Source: a virus | Virus record (IMG/VR): IMGVR_UViG_3300041409_000649 | Coordinates: 1-34,868 of that record | DNA length: 34,868 nt | Reading direction: 5' to 3' (one strand) | Shown here: piece after piece, positions 4,372 to 32,098 of the stretch | Numbering within the stretch: the stretch's first letter is position 1 | Layout: each line of letters opens with the position of its first letter | Program-made: the position numbers and the translations under genes | The notes under the pieces: generated by a model | The model's input: only the letters and a program-made list of their open reading frames with translations | What the model was told of the DNA's origin: nothing | Database searches by the model: none

Positions 4372-4616
4372 CCGAGCTCAGCGGCGACGAGCAGGCGATG
4401 CTGGCGTTCGAGCGCAGCTGGTGGAAGTACGCCGGCGCGAAGGAGAGCGCGATCCGGGAGCAGTTCGGGATCAGCGCCACCGCCTACTACCAGCGCCTCG
4501 GGCGGCTGATGGAGCGGCCGGAGGCGTACATGCACGACCCGGTGCTGGTGAAGCGCCTCCGCCGACTCCGTGAGACGCGCGCGGCCGCACGGCGGGGGCG
4601 GGCCGCCGCGTCGTGA
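4368..4616 (+). CDS. DUF3263 family protein
   Basis: An 82-residue protein with the typical DUF3263 pattern: LSGDEQAMLAFERSWWKYAG, then KESAIREQFGISATAYYQ, then a DPVLVKRLRRLRETRAAARR tail. The family is small, almost confined to actinobacteria and usually chromosomal. The middle of the protein looks like a helix-turn-helix and the tail is strongly basic, so DNA binding is likely. It sits between the membrane protein and the serine recombinase with GTGA overlaps at both ends, so it is made together with the integrase. It could be an accessory DNA-binding factor for integration or immunity; no function is established for the family as far as I know. Confidence 0.85.
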   Translation: MTELSGDEQAMLAFERSWWKYAGAKESAIREQFGISATAYYQRLGRLMERPEAYMHDPVLVKRLRRLRETRAAARRGRAAAS

Positions 4617-6115
4617 GCGCGCAGCGGCGGCTCCGCGCGGTCACGGACGCGCCATTGCGGTTCGGTATCGCCGTCCGGGTCTCCCGCGTCATGGGTCGTG
4701 GCGGGGACACGTTCCACAGTCCGGAGACGCAGGAGACGGCCGCGCGCCGCGCCGTCGTTGCCGCCGGCGGCGTCGTGGAGGAAGGCGTCGGCGCCAGCGG
4801 CGTCTTCTTCGACCTCGACGTGTCCGGCGCGATCGCGCCGTCCGACCGACCCGGCCTCGGTGAGGCGCTCGAACTGGTCCGCGCCGGCAGGCTGGACGGG
4901 ATCGCGCTGTACGACCTGTCGCGCTGGTCCCGCGAGACCGTCGCCGGGCTGCGGGAGCTCGAGCAGGTCGCCGCTCTCGGCGGGCAGGTGCTGTCCGCCT
5001 CGGAGACGATCGACCTCGCAACCCCCGCCGGCCGCTTCTCCACGACCGTGCAGCTCGCCGCGCACCAGATGCGCCGCGATGAGGCGTCGCGGGCGTGGCG
5101 GGCGACCCACGCCGCCCGGCATGAACAGGGCAAGCCACACGGCACCGTGCCCCTCGGCTACCTCCGCCATGACGGGCAGGTGATCGTCGACCCCGTCCTC
5201 GGCCCGGCCGTGCGGCAGGCGTTCCTCGACTACGCCGCCGGGCTCGTCTCGCAGATGGACATCGCGAAGCGCCTCGGCCCGCTGCGCGGCCGGCGGGTGT
5301 GGCAGTCGACGGTCAGCGACATGCTCCGCTCACCGTTCTACATCGGACAGGTGCGGCTCAACGGGCAGACCGCGCCCGGCCGGCACGAGCCGCTCGTCGC
5401 CGACGAGGTGTGGCATGCCGCCCGCCGTCGCCTTGAACGGGAGGGGCAAGGCCCCGTCCGGGTCCGCAGCGCGTCGCACAGCCTCGCCGGGCTCCTCGTC
5501 TGCGACCTCTGCGACCACGCGATGTGGCAGCGCAAGCCGGGCTATCAGCGCGAGCACCTCGGCAGGCCGGTGCTCGTCACGTGCAGGACGAAGCGGGAGA
5601 CCGGCGGCTGCGCCGGGGTCGGCACGCCCCGGTTCGACCTGATCGAGCAGGAGGTCCTCGCCGCCGTCCTCCGCGACGCCGCACGGCTACGGTCCGACGC
5701 GAACGCGCTCGCTGCCCGCCAGTCCGAGCAGGCACGGGCGACCGTGGACGTCACTGGCCTGCGCGCTGAGCTCGCCGAGCTCGAAGCCGCGGTCGGCCGG
5801 GCGGGGGTGCTCCTTGCGCGCGCAGTGATGACGGAGAGCGCCTACCAGTCGACGGTCAGTGAACTCGACGAGGCAGCGGCGAGCGTGCGGGCGCGGCTCC
5901 TCGCGGCGGAGGACACCGCGACGGCACCGCGACCGGCCGCGCTGCTCAACGCCGCCGAGCAGCTCGAGCGGCTGTGGCCGAGGATGACCTCCACGGAGCG
6001 GCGAGCCGCGCTTCGGCCGTTCGTGTCGCAGGTCCGGGTCGGCCCGACGGAGCGTCGCGGCCAGCCGATCGCTGAGCGCCTGGACGTGCTCGACCACCAG
6101 AGGAGACCCATGTGA
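4613..6115 (+). CDS. int: Large serine recombinase (phage integrase)
   Basis: A 500-residue protein with the full large-serine-integrase layout. An N-terminal catalytic domain holds Ser24 as likely nucleophile (AVRVSRV) and the DLSRWSRE block at 101-108. A recombinase domain follows (about 175-275, including STVSDMLRSPFYIGQ). A zinc ribbon has Cys297, Cys300, Cys324 and Cys333. A coiled coil (about 350-430) sits in the C-terminal DNA-binding region. Length and motifs suggest an active enzyme that joins attP and attB in one direction. Unusually, it lies within the immunity operon, starting at GTG 4613 over the previous stop, with no gap on either side that could hold attP. A second, unrelated integrase lies at 27243-28166. 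Confidence 0.95.
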   Translation: MSAQRRLRAVTDAPLRFGIAVRVSRVMGRGGDTFHSPETQETAARRAVVAAGGVVEEGVGASGVFFDLDVSGAIAPSDRPGLGEALELVRAGRLDGIALYDLSRWSRETVAGLRELEQVAALGGQVLSASETIDLATPAGRFSTTVQLAAHQMRRDEASRAWRATHAARHEQGKPHGTVPLGYLRHDGQVIVDPVLGPAVRQAFLDYAAGLVSQMDIAKRLGPLRGRRVWQSTVSDMLRSPFYIGQVRLNGQTAPGRHEPLVADEVWHAARRRLEREGQGPVRVRSASHSLAGLLVCDLCDHAMWQRKPGYQREHLGRPVLVTCRTKRETGGCAGVGTPRFDLIEQEVLAAVLRDAARLRSDANALAARQSEQARATVDVTGLRAELAELEAAVGRAGVLLARAVMTESAYQSTVSELDEAAASVRARLLAAEDTATAPRPAALLNAAEQLERLWPRMTSTERRAALRPFVSQVRVGPTERRGQPIAERLDVLDHQRRPM

Positions 6116-16811: not shown

Positions 16812-17143
16812 CAGAGCGCCCCACTGATGTGCTGCAGGTCCGCGGAGGTGTGGTCCAGGCCGAGGCCGACGTGCGCGGCGACGCCGCCGACGGCCCACTC
16901 GACGCCCGTGCTCTCGTCCACGACGGTGTCGGTGTGGAGCAGGTCGACCGGGTCGCACAGCAGCCGCGCGCCAGACGTCTGCCGGGAGCCGCCGGCGCGG
17001 TCCTCGCGGCCGCCGGGGGAGGACAGATGCGCGCGGACACCGGTCGCCACGTCCTCAGCCGAAGGATGCGGGTCGTACCCGTCGCGGGTGTCGTCGGATG
17101 GGACGCGGCGAACGGTGATCGTGGTCGTCGCGAGCGGGATCAT
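16811..17143 (-). CDS. Head closure (stopper-like) protein
   Basis: A 110-residue protein starting at ATG 17143 over the preceding stop (ATGA). It has a beta-rich N-terminus (TTTITVRRVPSDDTRDGYDP) and a middle Arg/Gly linker, then LLCDPVDLLHTDTVVDESTG, which looks like the beta strands of phage head-tail adaptor or stopper proteins (SPP1 gp16 or DUF-type). Order portal, connector, stopper, gp10, terminator is typical. The call rests on context and size more than on a diagnostic motif. Confidence 0.7.
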   Translation of the reverse strand: MIPLATTTITVRRVPSDDTRDGYDPHPSAEDVATGVRAHLSSPGGREDRAGGSRQTSGARLLCDPVDLLHTDTVVDESTGVEWAVGGVAAHVGLGLDHTSADLQHISGAL

Positions 17144-17712
17144 GATGCCCGCCTACGGACGTAGGGCCTCAGCTGCGACTGGCTCGTCTCGTCGAGCGCC
17201 CCGCCGGCCGCTCCGCCGCTGCCGAACGCGACGCTGATGTCCCCGACCTTCACCGACGCCGCACCAGCGAGAACGGCAGTGGCGGAGGCGGTGGTGAGGG
17301 CGCGGGCGGTGCGGGCGATCTCCCGCGCGATCGTCAGCGGGAGCGTCTCGGCGGTCCAGCCGCCGGTGTAGGTGACGGTCGCGTAGCCGGGGCTGTCGTA
17401 CTGCCCGTACATCCACGGGCCGTCGTCCGGTCCGACGCCGACCAGCGCGACGCCCTCGACGGTGTAGCCGGTCGTCGCCTCAGCGTCGATGGGCGTCGCG
17501 GACGGGTAGGCGGCCCAGCCCGCGCCGAACCCTCCGCTGTCCTGCCGGTACAGCCGGCACCGCTCCGTGCGCTCCTGACGATCGAGTGGCCGGCGGAGGT
17601 ACTCGGCGATGAGCTTCTCGGCGTCGGCGAGCGCGGCGGTGACTGTGTCGTCCGCGGTGCTGGTGTCGCCGGTGAGACGCCGGTACGCGGCGAGACTGAC
17701 GAGGGTCGTCAT
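17140..17712 (-). CDS. Head-tail connector (adaptor) protein
   Basis: A 190-residue protein. The N-terminus (LVSLAAYRRLTGDTSTADDT, then AEKLIAEYLRRPLDRQE) is a helical bundle like the gp6/gp15 adaptor that sits under the portal. It is followed by a beta segment and a helix (TIAREIARTARALTTASATA). It is the first gene behind promoter/leader cassette A. ATG 17712 is preceded by TAGGAG, just after a hairpin. Expression is therefore probably independent of the capsid unit. Confidence 0.78.
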   Translation of the reverse strand: MTTLVSLAAYRRLTGDTSTADDTVTAALADAEKLIAEYLRRPLDRQERTERCRLYRQDSGGFGAGWAAYPSATPIDAEATTGYTVEGVALVGVGPDDGPWMYGQYDSPGYATVTYTGGWTAETLPLTIAREIARTARALTTASATAVLAGAASVKVGDISVAFGSGGAAGGALDETSQSQLRPYVRRRAS

Positions 17713-17717
17713 CGCAC

Positions 17718-17822
17718 GCTCCTAGGACGCAGGGATCAGCGTCCCGTCAGCGCGTGCGTATCGGCCGCCACGTCCGGGTCTGCCGTCAAGGTACGCGCCG
17801 GTGCGTGCTGGTCAAGCAGCCA
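17718..17822 (-). repeat. Late promoter/leader cassette, copy A
   Basis: About 105 bases that match the segment 20838-20944. Both copies lie just before a minus-strand gene (connector here, capsid there). In order on the minus strand they share GGCTGCTTGAC (with the -35), GGCGCGTACC (-10), GTGGCGGCCGAT, GCACGCGCTGA, a hairpin and the ribosome-binding site GGAGCG. The hairpin in this copy is GGACGC, loop TGATCCCT, GCGTCC (17725-17744); its sixth pair is C-G where copy B has A-T, so the pairing is kept while the bases differ. Confidence 0.75.
17788..17815 (-). promoter_or_regulatory. Late promoter A (connector/tail genes)
   Basis: On the minus strand TTGACC (17815-17810), a 16-base spacer and TACCTT (17793-17788). 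The -10 fits the actinobacterial TANNNT form. Copy B has TTGACG-16-TACCGT at the same place in the repeat. The transcript would carry a leader of about 65-70 bases with the conserved hairpin before the connector gene. Confidence 0.6.
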
Positions 17823-17823
17823 C

Positions 17824-17852
17824 GCGACAGAGACCGGGCCCGGCGTTACCGT
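17824..17852 (+). promoter_or_regulatory. Possible leaderless promoter of the plus-strand moron
   Basis: GCGACA (17824-17829), a 17-base spacer and TACCGT (17847-17852), ending 7 bases before the ATG at 17860. Geometry is almost the same as for the leaderless Cro-like gene. There is no Shine-Dalgarno sequence before the ATG, which favours a leaderless start. The -35 is weak (4 of 6). Confidence 0.4.
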
Positions 17853-17859
17853 CCGCGCC

Positions 17860-18198
17860 ATGAGCCTCGTGAACTGGCACACCGTCCGCGCCGGATGGAC
17901 CCCGGAGGGTCACGTCATGGAGGTGATGCACGAGATGACCGACCGGGTGATGCCGATCTTCGAGGACATGCTGCAGGAGTGGCTCGACTCCCAGGCCGTC
18001 ATGTTGATGGCGGCCGTCGTGCCCGCGTACATCAGGATCGAGGGACACGAGCTGCTGAACGTCGACCCGCTTGAGCTCCGCGCCAGCGTCAACGACGCGG
18101 CGGAGCGGGCAAACGCGCTCGTCGACGAGCAGATCGCTCAGGAGCAGCCGCGGATCAACAACTTCGTCGCGCAGCTCCGCCTCGGCTTCATCGAGTAG
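17860..18198 (+). CDS. Plus-strand moron gene inside the head module, unknown function
   Basis: A 112-residue protein and the only plus-strand gene outside the immunity operon, lying between late cassette A and the 18255-19067 gene. It is mostly helical and acidic, unusually Met-rich in its first half (eight Met in the first 50 residues, including VMEVMHEMTDRVMP). A more hydrophobic patch at 47-57 is followed by a helix (ASVNDAAERANALVDEQIAQ). No cysteines, signal peptide or clear membrane helix are seen. I do not recognise it. An independently promoted gene facing against the late operon is the usual form of a moron expressed from the prophage, for example for exclusion of other phages or host fitness; that is inference. 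Confidence 0.7.
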   Translation: MSLVNWHTVRAGWTPEGHVMEVMHEMTDRVMPIFEDMLQEWLDSQAVMLMAAVVPAYIRIEGHELLNVDPLELRASVNDAAERANALVDEQIAQEQPRINNFVAQLRLGFIE

Positions 18199-18206
18199 CG
18201 AACCGA

Positions 18207-18232
18207 GCCCGCCTTAGCGGCAGGTTGCGGGC
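18207..18232. terminator. Hairpin between convergent genes
   Basis: GCCCGC (18207-18212) and GCGGGC (18227-18232) enclose 14 bases, in the 56-base gap between the plus-strand moron and the convergent minus-strand gene. A smaller alternative hairpin (CCGC-CTTA-GCGG) overlaps it. No T-tract on either side, so a terminator role is only plausible. Confidence 0.35.
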
Positions 18233-18254
18233 GGCCCCGCGAAGTGACGCAGGC

Positions 18255-19067
18255 TCATGCTTCTACGTCGTACTCCACGACAATCCAGCCATCAGCCAGG
18301 ATGCCAATGGACTGGGGGTTGGTCTGCTCGAAGTCAGCGGTATCGGCGGGCCATGTGTCCCAGGTGATCGCTAGGGCATCGCCGAGAGAACCACCCGACC
18401 CGAGTTCCACTGTGAATCGTGACCCCAGTGCGATCACAGCCCCCGCAGCGTCCGCTACACGCCGCACGGACAGGCTCGCGTAAGACGCCGCAAAACTCGA
18501 GTGGTCCTGCGTCCGCACGCTCAACTGCACAAGGTCCCCGGCGTGAACGGGGGCCGTCATCGCCCCGGCTGCGAACCAGCCAGGGGCACCGAACGCTATG
18601 TCTCCGAACCCGCCTGTGATCGTCACCTGGGCCAGGAAGGGCACACCCGACGCGCCGCCCGGTGCCCTCAGTTCATACCCGTCCTCGGCCTCATTGACAG
18701 TGACGACCTTGCCCGTATCGCCCGTCGTCGGAACCGGCACCGAACTGCCACTACCGTCCGCCGGGTCAACGACGCCCGCGACCTCGATCGCGGTGTACGG
18801 CGGACCAGACGCGTCCGCGTACAGCACGAACAGGCTGTCGACACCGTCCGGGCCGTAGAAGCGCGGCAGCTCACCGCCCCGGTCGACGCGCAGCTCCCCG
18901 CGCGGGAGCGGGTCGCCGTCGACGTCCTCGATCTCGGCGTAGATCGACGACAGGTCGAACGTGCCCGGGTACGAAGCGGGGACCTGCTGCGTGAGGACGT
19001 GCGCGACGGAGCCGGCCGCTGACGGTCGCAGCGTCAGCAGATCGGCCCGGAAGAGCTTGCGTGCCAC
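18255..19067 (-). CDS. Structural protein downstream of capsid (fibre or decoration candidate)
   Basis: A 270-residue beta-rich protein, N-terminus MARKLFRADLLTLRPSAAG, then FDLSSIYAEIEDVDGDPLP, a Pro/Thr/Gly linker at about 105-140 (SVPVPTTGDTGK), and a C-terminal beta-sandwich-like domain (QVTITGGFGDIAFGAPGWFA to WIVVEYDVEA). The two-part structure with a flexible linker resembles virion fibres and head decoration proteins. Its place between capsid and connectors suggests a head fibre or decoration protein rather than a tail fibre. No enzymatic motif. It is probably in the capsid transcript. Confidence 0.65.
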   Translation of the reverse strand: MARKLFRADLLTLRPSAAGSVAHVLTQQVPASYPGTFDLSSIYAEIEDVDGDPLPRGELRVDRGGELPRFYGPDGVDSLFVLYADASGPPYTAIEVAGVVDPADGSGSSVPVPTTGDTGKVVTVNEAEDGYELRAPGGASGVPFLAQVTITGGFGDIAFGAPGWFAAGAMTAPVHAGDLVQLSVRTQDHSSFAASYASLSVRRVADAAGAVIALGSRFTVELGSGGSLGDALAITWDTWPADTADFEQTNPQSIGILADGWIVVEYDVEA

Positions 19068-19075
19068 CGGGAGCT

Positions 19076-19474
19076 CTACCGGGACTCGCGCGCGGGCGCG
19101 CGCTTCTTCGACGCGGCCGCGGCCTTCTGGCCGCTGCCGTCCTCGTCCTCGCCAGCGGGCGGCGGGGTCTCGAGGTCGTCACGGCCGGCGGGCTTACCCG
19201 CATCGGCGGTCTCGACCTCGACCGAGCGGGCGTCCTGCTCGAGCCGGGTCGGGTCGGCGCGGAGGTTCTTCACCTCGCTCTTCGGGACCTGAGCGCCCGC
19301 CGCGTAGCGGAGCACCCCGCCCCCGTCGAACAGGCGGGTCTCCGCCGTCACAGTGTCTTCGGTCTTCGCCACGGTGCCTCCTGGCAGGAACGGGTAGTCG
19401 GCGCGGTGCTCGATGTCCGGGAAGCTCAGACAGGAGCCTCCGCAGACCGGGCAGGCCGCCCCTGAAGTGCTCAT
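19076..19474 (-). CDS. Capsid-adjacent protein with zinc-knuckle N-terminus
   Basis: A 132-residue protein. The N-terminus has CPVCGGSC (residues 8-15), likely a zinc knuckle. The middle part (FPDIEHRADYPFLPGGTVAK, LRYAAGAQVPKSEVKNLRAD) is followed by an acidic then Lys/Ala/Arg-rich tail (QKAAAASKKRAPARESR). Similar small proteins follow the capsid gene in actinophages and may be head accessory proteins. Function not established. It starts at ATG 19474 in the same direction as and shortly after the capsid gene. Confidence 0.7.
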   Translation of the reverse strand: MSTSGAACPVCGGSCLSFPDIEHRADYPFLPGGTVAKTEDTVTAETRLFDGGGVLRYAAGAQVPKSEVKNLRADPTRLEQDARSVEVETADAGKPAGRDDLETPPPAGEDEDGSGQKAAAASKKRAPARESR

Positions 19475-19498
19475 GAGGAGCGGCCCGCCCGTCGCCTG

Positions 19499-20833
19499 CT
19501 AGGCGGCGAAGGTGACCTCGACGAAGTAGTCTGGCCGGTGGTTGAGCAGCGCGACGCGCTCCTCGGCCAGGATCGCGACCTTGTTGTAGACGAAGTAGTC
19601 GGCGTGCTGCTCACCGACGCGGATCGTCGTCTGCTCACGGTCGAGCAGCTGCGCGCCGATGCGCCACGCGCCGACGATCGCCGTGCCCGCGGCCAGCGAG
19701 CGGGTGCGGACGGCCGGCAGACCCCACGGGGTGAGCCGGGCCGGGTCGACGAACGGGTCGACGTCGTAGTGCCCGTCGCCGCCGCGGCGGGTGACCATCG
19801 CCCAGAAGTCCGTCGGGTTCATCGCAACGCCGTCGGGCTCGCCGTCGACGAGCTCGATCTTCGCGATGGCGTTCGCCAGCGAGGTGGCGTTGTCGCCGGC
19901 GGTGCCGGCCTGCGTCTGCAGCCCGGTGGTGTTCCGGATGCCCGTCAGGTTCGGGGCGCTGCCGTTGCCGTTGAGGACCTGGTCCTCCTCGCGGACGGCG
20001 AGCATGTAGGCGAGTCGCGCGTCGATGTAGGAGCGCAGCGTCGGCGCGTCCGCGAGCGCCTCCGAGGTGGCCGGGATCCACGCGGCGATCTTGCGGACGG
20101 GGGCGTCGGCCTGGACGAACGCCATGCCGACCTCGGGCTTCGCGGCGCCCTCGGCGACGGTCGTCGCGCCGGTCTCCGACGTCCGCGGGCTGACCTCGCG
20201 GATGTAGGGCACCGAGCTCAGTCCGGTCTGACCGCCCGAGAGGAGGTCGCGGACGAACAGGCGCCTGCGGTCGACACCGTTCGGGTTCAGGACGGGCTGG
20301 CCGACGGGGCGGAACACGCCGGTGCCGGTGCCGTCGAGCAGGGTGCGGACCTCGATCTCGACGGCCTTGGAGCGGCCGGCCTGGAAGTCGGCGTACAGGC
20401 TGTCGTCGATGACCTGCGCACCAGCGGAGCGGGTGTCGACGTCGTCGCCGGTGTGCGCGCCGGTCGCGGCCGACGGCCCGCGGCCCTTGTTGCGGCTGCG
20501 CTGCTCGTCCTCCGTCGCCTGCGCGAGGATGCGGGTGACGGCCTGGTGCATCGCGTCGGAGCTGTTCAGCTCGTCGAGGGCGCTGCGGAAGTCGGCCGTG
20601 TACGTCTCGCCGCGCTTGTCGGGGCTGACGCTGCGGAGCTCACCGACGCGGGTGACGGCGGCGAGGCAGGCGTCGCGAAGGCCGACGGCCTGCTCGCGGA
20701 GGTCGTTCACGTCGAGGGTGGCGAGGTCGCCGATGTCGTTCAGCCGGCGGCGGTTGCCGGGGGCGAGGACGATGCCGAGCAGGAACACCGCGAGAGCGGT
20801 GACGAGGCTGAGGTTCAGCAGGACAGCGAGCAC
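19499..20833 (-). CDS. HK97-fold major capsid protein with hydrophobic N-terminus
   Basis: A 444-residue protein. The C-terminal two thirds show the HK97 capsid fold: GQTGLSSVPYIREVSPRTSE and AKPEVGMAFVQADAPVRKIA, then DARLAYMLAVREEDQVLNGN and GAWRIGAQLLDREQTTIRVG. Residues about 35-120 are the helical scaffold-like delta domain, expected to be removed by the prohead protease. Unusually, the first 25 residues (LAVLLNLSLVTALAVFLLG) form a membrane-like helix followed by Arg-Arg-Arg. I choose GTG 20833, 6 bases after GGAG; a TTG at 20845 is the alternative. It is the first gene behind cassette B, so strong late expression is likely. Confidence 0.88.
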   Translation of the reverse strand: MLAVLLNLSLVTALAVFLLGIVLAPGNRRRLNDIGDLATLDVNDLREQAVGLRDACLAAVTRVGELRSVSPDKRGETYTADFRSALDELNSSDAMHQAVTRILAQATEDEQRSRNKGRGPSAATGAHTGDDVDTRSAGAQVIDDSLYADFQAGRSKAVEIEVRTLLDGTGTGVFRPVGQPVLNPNGVDRRRLFVRDLLSGGQTGLSSVPYIREVSPRTSETGATTVAEGAAKPEVGMAFVQADAPVRKIAAWIPATSEALADAPTLRSYIDARLAYMLAVREEDQVLNGNGSAPNLTGIRNTTGLQTQAGTAGDNATSLANAIAKIELVDGEPDGVAMNPTDFWAMVTRRGGDGHYDVDPFVDPARLTPWGLPAVRTRSLAAGTAIVGAWRIGAQLLDREQTTIRVGEQHADYFVYNKVAILAEERVALLNHRPDYFVEVTFAA

Positions 20834-20837
20834 GGGT

Positions 20838-20944
20838 CGCTCCAAGGACGAAGGGATATTCGTCCCTCAGCGCGTGCAGATCGGCCGCCACCTCGGGGGT
20901 TCAAGGTCGAACGGTACGCGCCAACGCGTACTCGTCAAGCAGCC
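20838..20944 (-). repeat. Late promoter/leader cassette, copy B
   Basis: Second copy of the roughly 105-base cassette found at 17718-17822, here ahead of the capsid gene. Its hairpin is GGACGAA, loop TATCCC, TTCGTCC (20846-20865), a perfect 7-bp stem ending one to two bases before the ribosome-binding site. The loop keeps the ATCCC core of copy A. Conservation is patchy: promoter elements, hairpin and the blocks GTGGCGGCCGAT and GCACGCGCTGA are kept, the rest diverges, suggesting selection on these parts. Confidence 0.75.
20911..20938 (-). promoter_or_regulatory. Late promoter B (capsid genes)
   Basis: On the minus strand TTGACG (20938-20933), a 16-base spacer and TACCGT (20916-20911), aligned position by position with late promoter A. 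Predicted transcript leader about 65-70 bases, including the hairpin, before the GTG at 20833. Confidence 0.6.
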
Positions 20945-27242: not shown

Positions 27243-28166
27243 TCATCCGGCGGCGCCCGCGAGGAAGGACGCGACGCGGTGGCTCGCGTTCCGATCGAAC
27301 GAGCGCGCTGCCATGTCGTAGATCGCCGTGGTGTTGGGGCTTGAGTGTCTGAGGGCGAGTTGCATGTCCCGGAGGGGGACGCCTGAGAGCAGGCCGCTGG
27401 TGGCGAAGGTGCGGCGTAGGGCGTGGGGTGGGACGTGCTTCTCGAGGTGGGCGGTGCTGGCGATGCGCTGCAGCATCCGATTCGCCGATGCGCGGTCGAG
27501 CCGGCGTCCTTGGGTGTTCACGAGGAGCGGCCCCTCGGTGCGGGTGCCGATGACGGCCTTGAGCGCGCGCACAACCGGAAGGGGCAGCGGGACGATGGCG
27601 TACTTGCTGCCCTTGCCCATGAAGCGGATGGTGTCGTAGCCCTGCTCGACCTGCATGCTCTCGACGTTGAGGCTGCACGCTTCGCTGATGCGGAGTCCTG
27701 ACAGCCCGAGCAGCGAGACGAGGGCTGTCTCGGTCGGCCCCATCTTCCGGGCGCCTTGCAGCAGCTGGCCGAACTCGAGGGTGTTGAGGAACGGGCGGTG
27801 TTGCTCGTCGCGGTTGACCTTAGGGCGTTCCACGCTGACGGCCGGGTCTTTCGCGATGAGGTCGTCGAGGGCGGCGTACTTGTAGAAGCCGGCGACGACG
27901 GTGACGCGGCGGCTGATGGTGCTGGTCGCCCAGCCGGTCTGCTCGAGCCAGCGGACGTACAGCTCGACGTGTCCGCGGAGGGCCCGCAGCGGGTGGAGGC
28001 TGTTGCGGTCGCACCAGTCGAGGTAGACGCGTAGGTCGGTTGTGAAGTCGCGGAGGGTGCTGCCGCGGTAGCGGCTGAGGTAGCCGGCGATGGCGAGCTT
28101 GAGCGGGTCGCGGGACACCAGGTCGTGTCCTACGTCGTAGGTGCTGATGGTGGTCGTAGCGTTCAT
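27243..28166 (-). CDS. Tyrosine recombinase (integrase or XerC/D-like resolvase)
   Basis: A 307-residue protein with an N-terminal SAM-like core-binding domain (about 20-110) and the catalytic domain. All catalytic residues are visible: Arg159 (LSGLRISEAC), Lys185 (MGKGSK), His248 and Arg251 (PPHALRRTF), His274 (LRHSSPNTT) and Tyr283 (TTAIYD). It therefore looks active. Size and the compact layout are XerC/D-like. GAGGAG precedes the ATG at 28166. It sits at the border between early genes and terminase, not next to the excisionase-like gene, and is the second integrase-type enzyme of this phage. A dif-like inverted repeat lies 41 bases upstream. Confidence 0.93.
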   Translation of the reverse strand: MNATTTISTYDVGHDLVSRDPLKLAIAGYLSRYRGSTLRDFTTDLRVYLDWCDRNSLHPLRALRGHVELYVRWLEQTGWATSTISRRVTVVAGFYKYAALDDLIAKDPAVSVERPKVNRDEQHRPFLNTLEFGQLLQGARKMGPTETALVSLLGLSGLRISEACSLNVESMQVEQGYDTIRFMGKGSKYAIVPLPLPVVRALKAVIGTRTEGPLLVNTQGRRLDRASANRMLQRIASTAHLEKHVPPHALRRTFATSGLLSGVPLRDMQLALRHSSPNTTAIYDMAARSFDRNASHRVASFLAGAAG

Positions 28167-29797: not shown

Positions 29798-30596
29798 GGT
29801 CGGCCTCCTTCGCCACCCGCTCGGCACGGGCCATGTCTTCGATCCAGTCCACGCCCTGCTGCCGCCACTCGGGCATGTCGCCGTAGGAGTAGTCGGTCTG
29901 CAACCACGCGACGGCCTGACGGATGCCCGCCTCGCGGCCCAACTCGTACTGCGGGTCGGGCGTGTCCATGAGGAAGGCGAGTTCCAGCACCCGCTCGTAG
30001 GCACGCGGGTGCAGCGGCACGGTGTTCTCGTCTGACCCCCACAGGTAGGCGTTGGCGACCTCGCGGAGCAGTTCCGCGTCGGTGTGCGATGCGTGGTCCA
30101 GACGCTGCGTCAGGGAGTCGCAGTCGCCGTGGTGCGTGTCAACCAGGGCGCAGTCAGGCGCGTGGACGGTGGTGGTCGTCATGGGTTCTCCTTTGTGGGT
30201 GTGGGACGCGAACAGGTCGCACTCGATGGGGTCACCGACGTGCGTGACGTAGCAGGTGTGGCAGACGGGGATGCCGTGCCGGGAGCAGCAGGGAGCAACC
30301 TCGCGCTGCTGAAAGCACTTGCCGCACTCACCCGTCGTACAAGTCGGCGGTGCGGAGCAGCCCCCGTGGTCGCCGTCGTGGGGGGTCAGTTCAGAGGTGT
30401 CAACCTTTGCTGATGCAGCGCGGGCGTCGAGCGCGTCACGGTAGCGGTCCGTGGCTGCGTCAAGTGCCAGCAACGCTGCCTCGACCTCAGCGTCGGCTCG
30501 TGCCACGGAAGCGACCTCGCGCACACCCTCACACTCCGTGTTGTCCACAGCCTTGATCCTTTCGGTCGGTGTCACAGAGGGGTGGGTGCGTGTCAT
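29790..30596 (-). CDS. Cys-rich early protein, possibly two fused units with an internal start
   Basis: A 268-codon frame. The N-terminal part has a helical region (ALLALDAATDRYRDALDARA), then a dense Cys/His cluster (CSAPPTCTTGECGKCFQQ, EVAPCCSRHGIPVCHTCYV) likely to bind two zinc ions. The frame continues into a second part beginning at an internal ATG at 30182 that has its own strong AAAGGAGAACCC ribosome-binding site and reads TTTTVHAPDCALVDTHHG. The end carries QYELGREAGIRQAVAWLQTD, shared with the next gene. The first start could be ATG 30596 (TGATG overlap) or GTG 30547, which has AAAGGA eight bases upstream in a duplicated leader. It may be one protein, or two produced from one frame. 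Confidence 0.65.
   Translation of the reverse strand: MTRTHPSVTPTERIKAVDNTECEGVREVASVARADAEVEAALLALDAATDRYRDALDARAASAKVDTSELTPHDGDHGGCSAPPTCTTGECGKCFQQREVAPCCSRHGIPVCHTCYVTHVGDPIECDLFASHTHKGEPMTTTTVHAPDCALVDTHHGDCDSLTQRLDHASHTDAELLREVANAYLWGSDENTVPLHPRAYERVLELAFLMDTPDPQYELGREAGIRQAVAWLQTDYSYGDMPEWRQQGVDWIEDMARAERVAKEADRG
30534..30584. repeat. Duplicated 51-base start region, copy 1 (with DnaA-type box)
   Basis: 45 of 51 bases match 30949-30999. The segment holds TTGTCCACAG (30541-30550). On the minus strand it carries a ribosome-binding-like AAAGGA eight bases before a GTG (30547), followed by codons for Asp-Asn-Thr-Glu. The best-kept part covers that ribosome-binding site and GTG, which supports GTG as a real start for this gene and its paralogue. 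Confidence 0.6.
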
Positions 30597-30838: not shown

Positions 30839-31023
30839 CGCTGCTCGTAGGTGGGCTGTTCCAGCACGAACGGTCCGCGCTGCGGGGCAAGCCGTTCCAG
30901 CGCGTCCGCGATCCGCTCTAGTGCGGACTGACACCTAACGCACTCACGCTCCGTGTTGTCCACAGCCTCGGTCCTTTCGATCGGTGCTACAGAAGGGTGC
31001 CTAGAAGCCGAGGCGTCAGGCAT
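30835..31023 (-). CDS. Small early protein with duplicated N-terminus
   Basis: From ATG 31023 (8-base overlap with the previous stop) it encodes 62 residues. A GTG at 30963 inside the duplicated leader, with AAAGGA upstream, would give 42. The shared N-terminal motif is HPSV.P.ER..AVDNTE.E.VR, also found at the start of the gene ending at 29790. The rest (CQSALERIADALERLAPQRG) is one helix and a polar tail. Function unknown; it may be a truncated paralogue of that gene. Confidence 0.55.
   Translation of the reverse strand: MPDASASRHPSVAPIERTEAVDNTERECVRCQSALERIADALERLAPQRGPFVLEQPTYEQR
30949..30999. repeat. Duplicated 51-base start region, copy 2 (with DnaA-type box)
   Basis: Second copy of the segment at 30534-30584, with TTGTCCACAG at 30956-30965 and a GTG start at 30963 preceded by AAAGGA. 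Six mismatches to copy 1. It may have spread by duplication of a gene start, or be kept because of the DnaA-type box. Confidence 0.6.
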
Positions 31024-31626: not shown

Positions 31627-31931
31627 AGGCTCTCCTGGTCGTGGTGTCGAAGGGTGTGGTCGTGCCACTCGTCCTGGCAGTCCTCGCAGAGGCAGTGGCC
31701 CTCGTAGGCGCGCCAGCAGCGGGGGCACTCGCAGTCGCACGACGACGGCTGATCCGGCCAGAGCGCGCCGTTCATGCTGTGGGGCTCGGGGTGGGCGGAG
31801 CGAACCGAGTTCAGGCTCTGCGCCGCGACCGGCTCAGAGGCGATCGCGACAGAAGGCTCCGTAGGTTCGCTGCACTCCGGGCACGGATCGCCCGGCCGGC
31901 CTCTGTGGGGACAGGTCATCGGCACCGTCAT
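31623..31931 (-). CDS. Cys-rich zinc-finger-like early protein, 102 aa
   Basis: A 102-residue protein from ATG 31931 (ATGA overlap). It has an N-terminal CPHRGRPGDPCPEC cluster, a polar middle (VAIASEPVAAQSLNSVRSAH), and a dense C-terminal cluster (CDCECPRCWRAYEGHCLC, EDCQDEWHDH). At least ten cysteines and several histidines make metal binding near certain, probably two or three zinc ions. No named family recognised. It is one of the densest Cys proteins of the window. Confidence 0.65.
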   Translation of the reverse strand: MTVPMTCPHRGRPGDPCPECSEPTEPSVAIASEPVAAQSLNSVRSAHPEPHSMNGALWPDQPSSCDCECPRCWRAYEGHCLCEDCQDEWHDHTLRHHDQESL

Positions 31932-32098
31932 CGCGGCTGCTCCTTCGGGACGGGCACGCAGCTGGTGCAGCGCAAGAACCGCGCGACCGGCCGGTCGTTG
32001 TTGGGCTCTTCGTGCGTGCAGACGAGGAGCGCCCACTGCTGGCCGTTGATCCGCCAGCGACGGACAACCTCGCGCAGCGGCTGTTCGCAGCGGGTCAT
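31928..32098 (-). CDS. Small early protein with CxxC, 56 aa
   Basis: ATG 32098 overlaps the stop of the nuclease gene (ATGA), and its own stop overlaps the next ATG (ATGA). It is compact: CEQPLREVVRRWRINGQQWA, then LLVCTHEEPNNDRPVARF and LRCTSCVPVPKEQPR. Cys and His residues could form one zinc site. A basic Trp-rich surface suggests nucleic-acid contact. Function unknown. Confidence 0.6.
   Translation of the reverse strand: MTRCEQPLREVVRRWRINGQQWALLVCTHEEPNNDRPVARFLRCTSCVPVPKEQPR

Follow-up and report, generated by a model that had tools for sequence, protein, structure and literature searches.

Why would a phage place the same noncoding cassette before two of its late genes, and does the leader within it act on the translation of the gene that follows? 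The question arises in the window, the whole stretch of DNA that was analysed, which is a virus contig of 34,868 bases with identical 69-base ends. The phage is temperate and its late genes (terminase, portal, protease, capsid, adaptor, neck, major tail protein and tape measure) lie on the minus strand. Relatives of its capsid protein are found in phages of high-GC bacteria, mostly actinophages, with a protein identity of at most about 50% (48-53%). Phages make more of the capsid protein than of any other product, and to our knowledge RNA-level control of its synthesis has been little described in the tailed phages of high-GC bacteria. Our analysis mainly yields, for an uncultured phage group, a candidate capsid-leader RNA, which would belong to a kind already known in T4 and whose duplication in this phage appears to be unusual. 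The genes around the two cassettes are the following:

19499..20833, minus strand: major capsid protein gene (HK97 fold), GTG start at 20833
19076..19474, minus strand: 132-aa gene, conserved in relatives between the capsid and adaptor genes
18255..19067, minus strand: 270-aa gene, part of an insertion, matchless in the fetched relatives
17860..18198, plus strand: 112-aa antisense gene, part of the insertion, divergent from cassette A, without a family match
17140..17712, minus strand: head-tail adaptor gene (phrog_442), ATG start at 17712

The N-terminus of the capsid protein (20755-20833, minus strand) carries a hydrophobic stretch of about 26 residues (MLAVLLNLSLVTALAVFLLGIVLAPG) that is absent from the relatives. 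The phage also harbors two integrases of different kinds: the one at 4613-6115 (plus strand) is large, has an invertase-like domain (phrog_95) and is presumably of the serine type, and the one at 27243-28166 (minus strand) is of the phrog_1 type.

The cassette is about 106 nt long and occurs twice, on the minus strand in both cases:

20838..20944, minus strand: cassette B (promoter, leader, hairpin and Shine-Dalgarno), upstream of the major capsid gene
17717..17821, minus strand: cassette A, the second copy, upstream of the head-tail adaptor gene

Both segments had been recognized in the initial annotation, and our ends agree with it within 1 nt. The local alignment of A and B reaches a score of 59, whereas 4,930 random pairs of window segments score 18 on average and 37 at most, and about 80% of the aligned positions agree. 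The similarity extends from GGCTGCTTGAC to the Shine-Dalgarno GGAGCG and ends where the coding sequences begin. Within the window each shared block is confined to the two copies: TTGAC-AG-ACGC...GGCGCGTACC and GTGGCGGCCGAT-NN-GCACGCGCTGA occur exactly twice each (chance expectation 0.00 at up to 3 mismatches), and so does the hairpin block GGACGM..ATCCCT-KCGTCC (0.34 expected at up to 3 mismatches). A third copy at 31929-31992, suggested by covariance model R2, was rejected after its score fell from 16.2 to 9.3 bits under model R3, which was built without the window.

The upstream part of each cassette is a promoter of the host (sigma-70) type, defined here as TTGAC and TANNNT separated by 16-18 nt:

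20911..20938, minus strand: promoter B, TTGACG-N16-TACCGT
17788..17815, minus strand: promoter A, TTGACC-N16-TACCTT

This pair, proposed already in the initial annotation, comprises the only TTGAC-(16-18)-TANNNT sites of the whole window, where 0.07 would be expected; a stricter scan for TATAAT promoters returned zero sites. We infer that the cassette promoters are active. In the spacer of promoter B, from the -35 to the -10 box, there is a perfect dyad, GTACGCG-ttgg-CGCGTAC (20914-20931), and copy A keeps it with two mismatches. The dyad of promoter B could be an operator; as a general operator it was rejected, since 7 sites were counted against 7.5 expected, which leaves an operator role without evidence outside copy B. 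In one related capsid leader (L003, 5860-5985) a promoter-like TTGACC and a terminator-like hairpin (GGATCGG...CCGATCC-TTTTT) are found right before the ribosome site.

The presence of a second copy is best discussed together with the gene order. The succession of capsid gene, small 132-aa gene and adaptor gene is common to the window and to seven relatives (L036-L042), and in the relatives where the adaptor start was read (L007, L008, L009 and L011) it adjoins the preceding gene, with neither leader nor cassette. In the window the 270-aa minus-strand gene and the 112-aa plus-strand gene sit after the small gene and before the adaptor; neither matches anything in the fetched relatives, and GC content by codon position favours the plus-strand reading of the latter (17860-18198). 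The region between 18255 and 18198 was searched for a terminator and a significant fold is absent there. Since the operon is unbroken in the relatives and the window has two extra genes, copy A would restart late transcription past the insertion; the simplest reading, and the most likely one judging from the gene layout, is that it drives the connector, neck and tail genes anew.

One would argue that the repeats are recombination boundaries, i.e., that a module was swapped with a related phage via the shared leader and that two leaders remained as a by-product. The similarity stops exactly at the gene starts, the interval carries genes missing from relatives, and repeats that flank inserted genes have been described in cluster O mycobacteriophages (PMC4351075), where YungJamal 60, likewise a gene opposing the structural operon, lies between repeats of which relatives have one copy. 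However, the repeat of our phage is a complete promoter-leader-ribosome-site cassette, and recombination accounts for its origin but not for the retention of the promoter hexamers, the hairpin and the Shine-Dalgarno in both copies. We regard this explanation as distinctly unlikely.

Between promoter and start codon both copies contain the elements of a nested fold:

20867..20891, minus strand: leader block B, GTGGCGGCCGAT-CT-GCACGCGCTGA, with GCACGCGCT as the predicted 5' arm of the outer stem
17747..17771, minus strand: leader block A, GTGGCGGCCGAT-AC-GCACGCGCTGA, with GCACGCGCT as the predicted 5' arm of the outer stem
20846..20865, minus strand: inner hairpin B, GGACGA..ATCCCT..TCGTCC
17725..17744, minus strand: inner hairpin A, GGACGC..ATCCCT..GCGTCC
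20830..20843, minus strand: capsid Shine-Dalgarno and start region, GGAGCGACCCGTGC, predicted 3' arm of the outer stem
17714..17722, minus strand: adaptor Shine-Dalgarno, GGAGCGTGC, predicted 3' arm of the outer stem

The full hairpins read GGGACGC-TGATCCCT-GCGTCC in A and GGGACGA-ATATCCCT-TCGTCC in B. One stem pair is C-G in A and A-T in B and the remaining differences are confined to the loop, thus the exchange reported earlier is real. A lone compensated pair between two copies suggests a structure, but it is weak evidence by itself and proof is beyond its reach. Two features are absent from the initial annotation: GCACGCGCT is able to pair with the Shine-Dalgarno and start region in both copies, and the plus-strand gene at 17860-18198 is a neighbour of copy A. 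The masking is partial, as the unpaired probability of the Shine-Dalgarno is 0.30 and 0.51 in the window copies, and their folding z over 63 nt is only -1.5 and -0.7. Because the predicted fold covers the ribosome-binding region, it probably keeps the translation of both genes, capsid and adaptor, at a low level, and the window leader would in that case be a translational control element. A peptide encoded by the leader block (VAADLHAL...; 11 codons in A, 83 in B) was considered and rejected, a clear Shine-Dalgarno being absent.

It could be argued at this point that only the promoter and the Shine-Dalgarno are functional, that the copy serves to restart transcription and that the hairpin was kept through recent copying or for mRNA stabilisation. 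The promoters are the strongest feature of the cassette, and the partial pairing and the single compensatory pair just described agree with such a view. However, about 20% of the cassette positions have changed with all inner-stem pairs intact and the sole stem change compensated, and in relatives a covarying nested hairpin is kept at the same place. We consider the promoter-only explanation possible but rather unlikely.

The evidence from relatives is as follows. The capsid leaders of L036-L042 consist of GCCGA, a TTGCTC-type arm, an inner hairpin of variable sequence and AGGAGCA (AGGAGTC in one variant) abutting the ATG. The TTGCTC-type arm pairs with the Shine-Dalgarno, which thereby forms the 3' arm of the hairpin, and the nested hairpin has an almost fixed 5' block, GGCCGATTGCTC. 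A gene-blind scan of all viral contigs for GGCCGATTGCTC-N20-45-AGGAGCA found five places, and all five are capsid leaders. Two of the five, L119 and L120, belong to phages recovered by DNA pattern alone, their capsid proteins being only 33-34% identical to that of L036; all nine leaders share GGCCGA-TTGCTC, the inner hairpin and AGGAGCA before the ATG. Whole-record searches found one copy of the element per relative. A structural alignment of these nine leaders without the window, fitted by hand, pairs 88% of its cells and has 11 pairs that change on both sides, compared to 2-5 when the partner is slid; with the window copies included, 88.5% of the cells are paired and 13 pairs change on both sides. 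The inner-stem covariation rests on that fit, and unsupervised alignment and folding recovered the outer stem alone, with zero compensatory changes in it.

The Shine-Dalgarno of the relatives is unpaired with a probability of 0.00-0.25, and the mean folding z of the nine leaders is -2.4, compared to -0.1 for the adaptor starts of the same phages and -0.6 for capsid starts that lack the element. Pooling the seven relatives with the two window copies gives a combined z of -7 (the L038 segment being shortened), and when the halves of these leaders are swapped among them the pairing weakens, with only 11 of 20,000 permutations as good. Masking of the Shine-Dalgarno suits the relatives better than mRNA stabilisation, although it is partial in the window. 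No Rfam 15 covariance model matched the window or five relatives above the gathering threshold, nor the cassettes at a relaxed E-value. The selection for structure proposed in the initial annotation is supported at the capsid leader by the nine nested covarying leaders, the five-of-five scan and the z of -2.4, whereas the C-G/A-T exchange alone would have been a weak basis. The GGCCGATTGCTC arm is kept though its partner varies (AATC, CACC, AACC, ATC), so the arm is perhaps read as sequence; its near invariance hints that something recognizes it also in this way.

Do the window cassettes belong to the same element? Both have GGCCGAT at the matching distance, a nested fold and GGAGCG, with looser pairing than in the relatives. 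The covariance model R3 (nine relatives, window left out) detected neither of them, which again agrees with the promoter-only explanation. A loose layout test (GCCGA distance and a nested hairpin touching the Shine-Dalgarno) is passed by 83 of 317 candidates and by about 3% of GGAG starts by chance; in GC-rich DNA the pairing of a single leader to its Shine-Dalgarno is frequent by chance. The window capsid protein groups outside the clade that bears the element. Our judgement is that the window leaders and those of the relatives probably share a common descent, rather more so than not, although the miss by the window-free model leaves it unproven.

The exact cassette pattern has zero matches in other viral contigs, and the hairpin and Shine-Dalgarno pattern has a single one, outside any leader, which we put down to chance. 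A search of viral contigs with the adaptor protein found nothing, a scan of genome contigs found distant capsid relatives only, the actinobacterial prophages examined lack such a leader, and the RNA-element pattern has zero matches across 396 actinobacterial genomes. The element is also absent from Cantare, Lton and GMA6, named phages with related capsid genes. An early covariance model (N-padded) was discarded as too weak, and a model match in L072 because it lies inside a coding sequence.

The interpretation in the initial annotation is thus partly supported. Its late-gene element agrees with the matched promoter-leader cassettes before the capsid gene and the first connector gene, and its selection for structure agrees, at the capsid leader, with the nine leaders of relatives. 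On the other side, other viral contigs lack the exact cassette, model R3 misses the window copies, and the adaptor gene of relatives has no copy. The same cassette before the capsid and adaptor genes, together with a single masking hairpin in relatives, suggests a little-known control of capsid production. We slightly favour a reading in which the cassette is a late-gene control unit, copy A is its duplicate past the insertion and the leader fold holds down translation. In such a unit the Shine-Dalgarno would move together with its leader, some 70 nt long, and a host-type (sigma-70-like) promoter; copy B would drive the capsid gene and copy A would drive the adaptor-neck-tail genes again beyond the 270-aa and antisense 112-aa genes. 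The leader RNA would form a hairpin nested within a longer-range pairing over the ribosome-binding region, and capsid and adaptor translation would be held down until a protein, a ribosome or a different transcript start opens it. A more specific version, which we find doubtful, is that a phage protein, perhaps the capsid protein itself, recognizes the fixed GGCCGAUUGCUC arm and sets the timing or amount of capsid translation, the unit having been copied to the connector genes so that the head parts are kept proportionate.

The nearest precedent, by analogy, would be found in phage T4, where e, soc, 49 and I-TevI have leaders whose ribosome site is enclosed in a helix (PMC3014915, PMC2988022). 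There, too, the ribosome-binding site is paired within a leader hairpin and a late promoter is nearby. The genes here, however, are those of the capsid and the connector in an uncultured temperate siphophage group, a fixed 5' block is common to the relatives, the window has two copies, and its predicted promoter is upstream of the entire hairpin. If control followed T4 e, soc and I-TevI, the masked site would silence read-through RNA, and only transcripts starting late, inside or after the 5' arm, would be translated. The masking layout is the same (PMC3014915, PMC2988022). In L036-L042 a GTCAACAC-like block is seen about 94-107 nt before the capsid start, just past the upstream stop codon. 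Its distance to the downstream GCCGA is 38-44 nt in each of the seven, so a start near the 5' arm is possible in relatives; an obvious -10 box is absent, and the block is possibly part of their promoter, perhaps an unusual late one. In the window, however, the predicted start (about 7 nt past the -10) is upstream of the 5' arm, hence late transcripts would include the arm, and we hold a T4-like scheme to be unlikely.

Repeated noncoding elements at Shine-Dalgarno sites are also known as SAS and ESAS in cluster K mycobacteriophages and Microbacterium cluster EF, and ESAS has an inverted repeat just upstream of the site. SAS has a fixed sequence of 13 bp, is present in 11-19 copies and is restricted to non-structural genes of cluster K (PMC3203893, PMC7302621), whereas the leaders described here number two in the window (one in relatives), lie at structural genes, differ in sequence and use the Shine-Dalgarno itself as an arm. 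Membership in this family, which would imply a GGGATAGGAGCCC-like 13-bp element at many non-structural starts, was rejected: the two cassettes precede structural genes and have GGAGCG instead.

A covarying leader that masks the capsid site in divergent phages, and is a portable cassette in this one, would allow the timing and balance of head assembly to be tested in a small system, and it would also serve as a marker for annotating capsid genes in metagenomes. The window contains a second duplicated leader on the minus strand, a 62-nt repeat at 30523-30584 and 30938-30999 (85% identical), which includes a ribosome site, GAAAGGA, and the initial codons, GTGGACAACACGGAG, of two small genes nearby.
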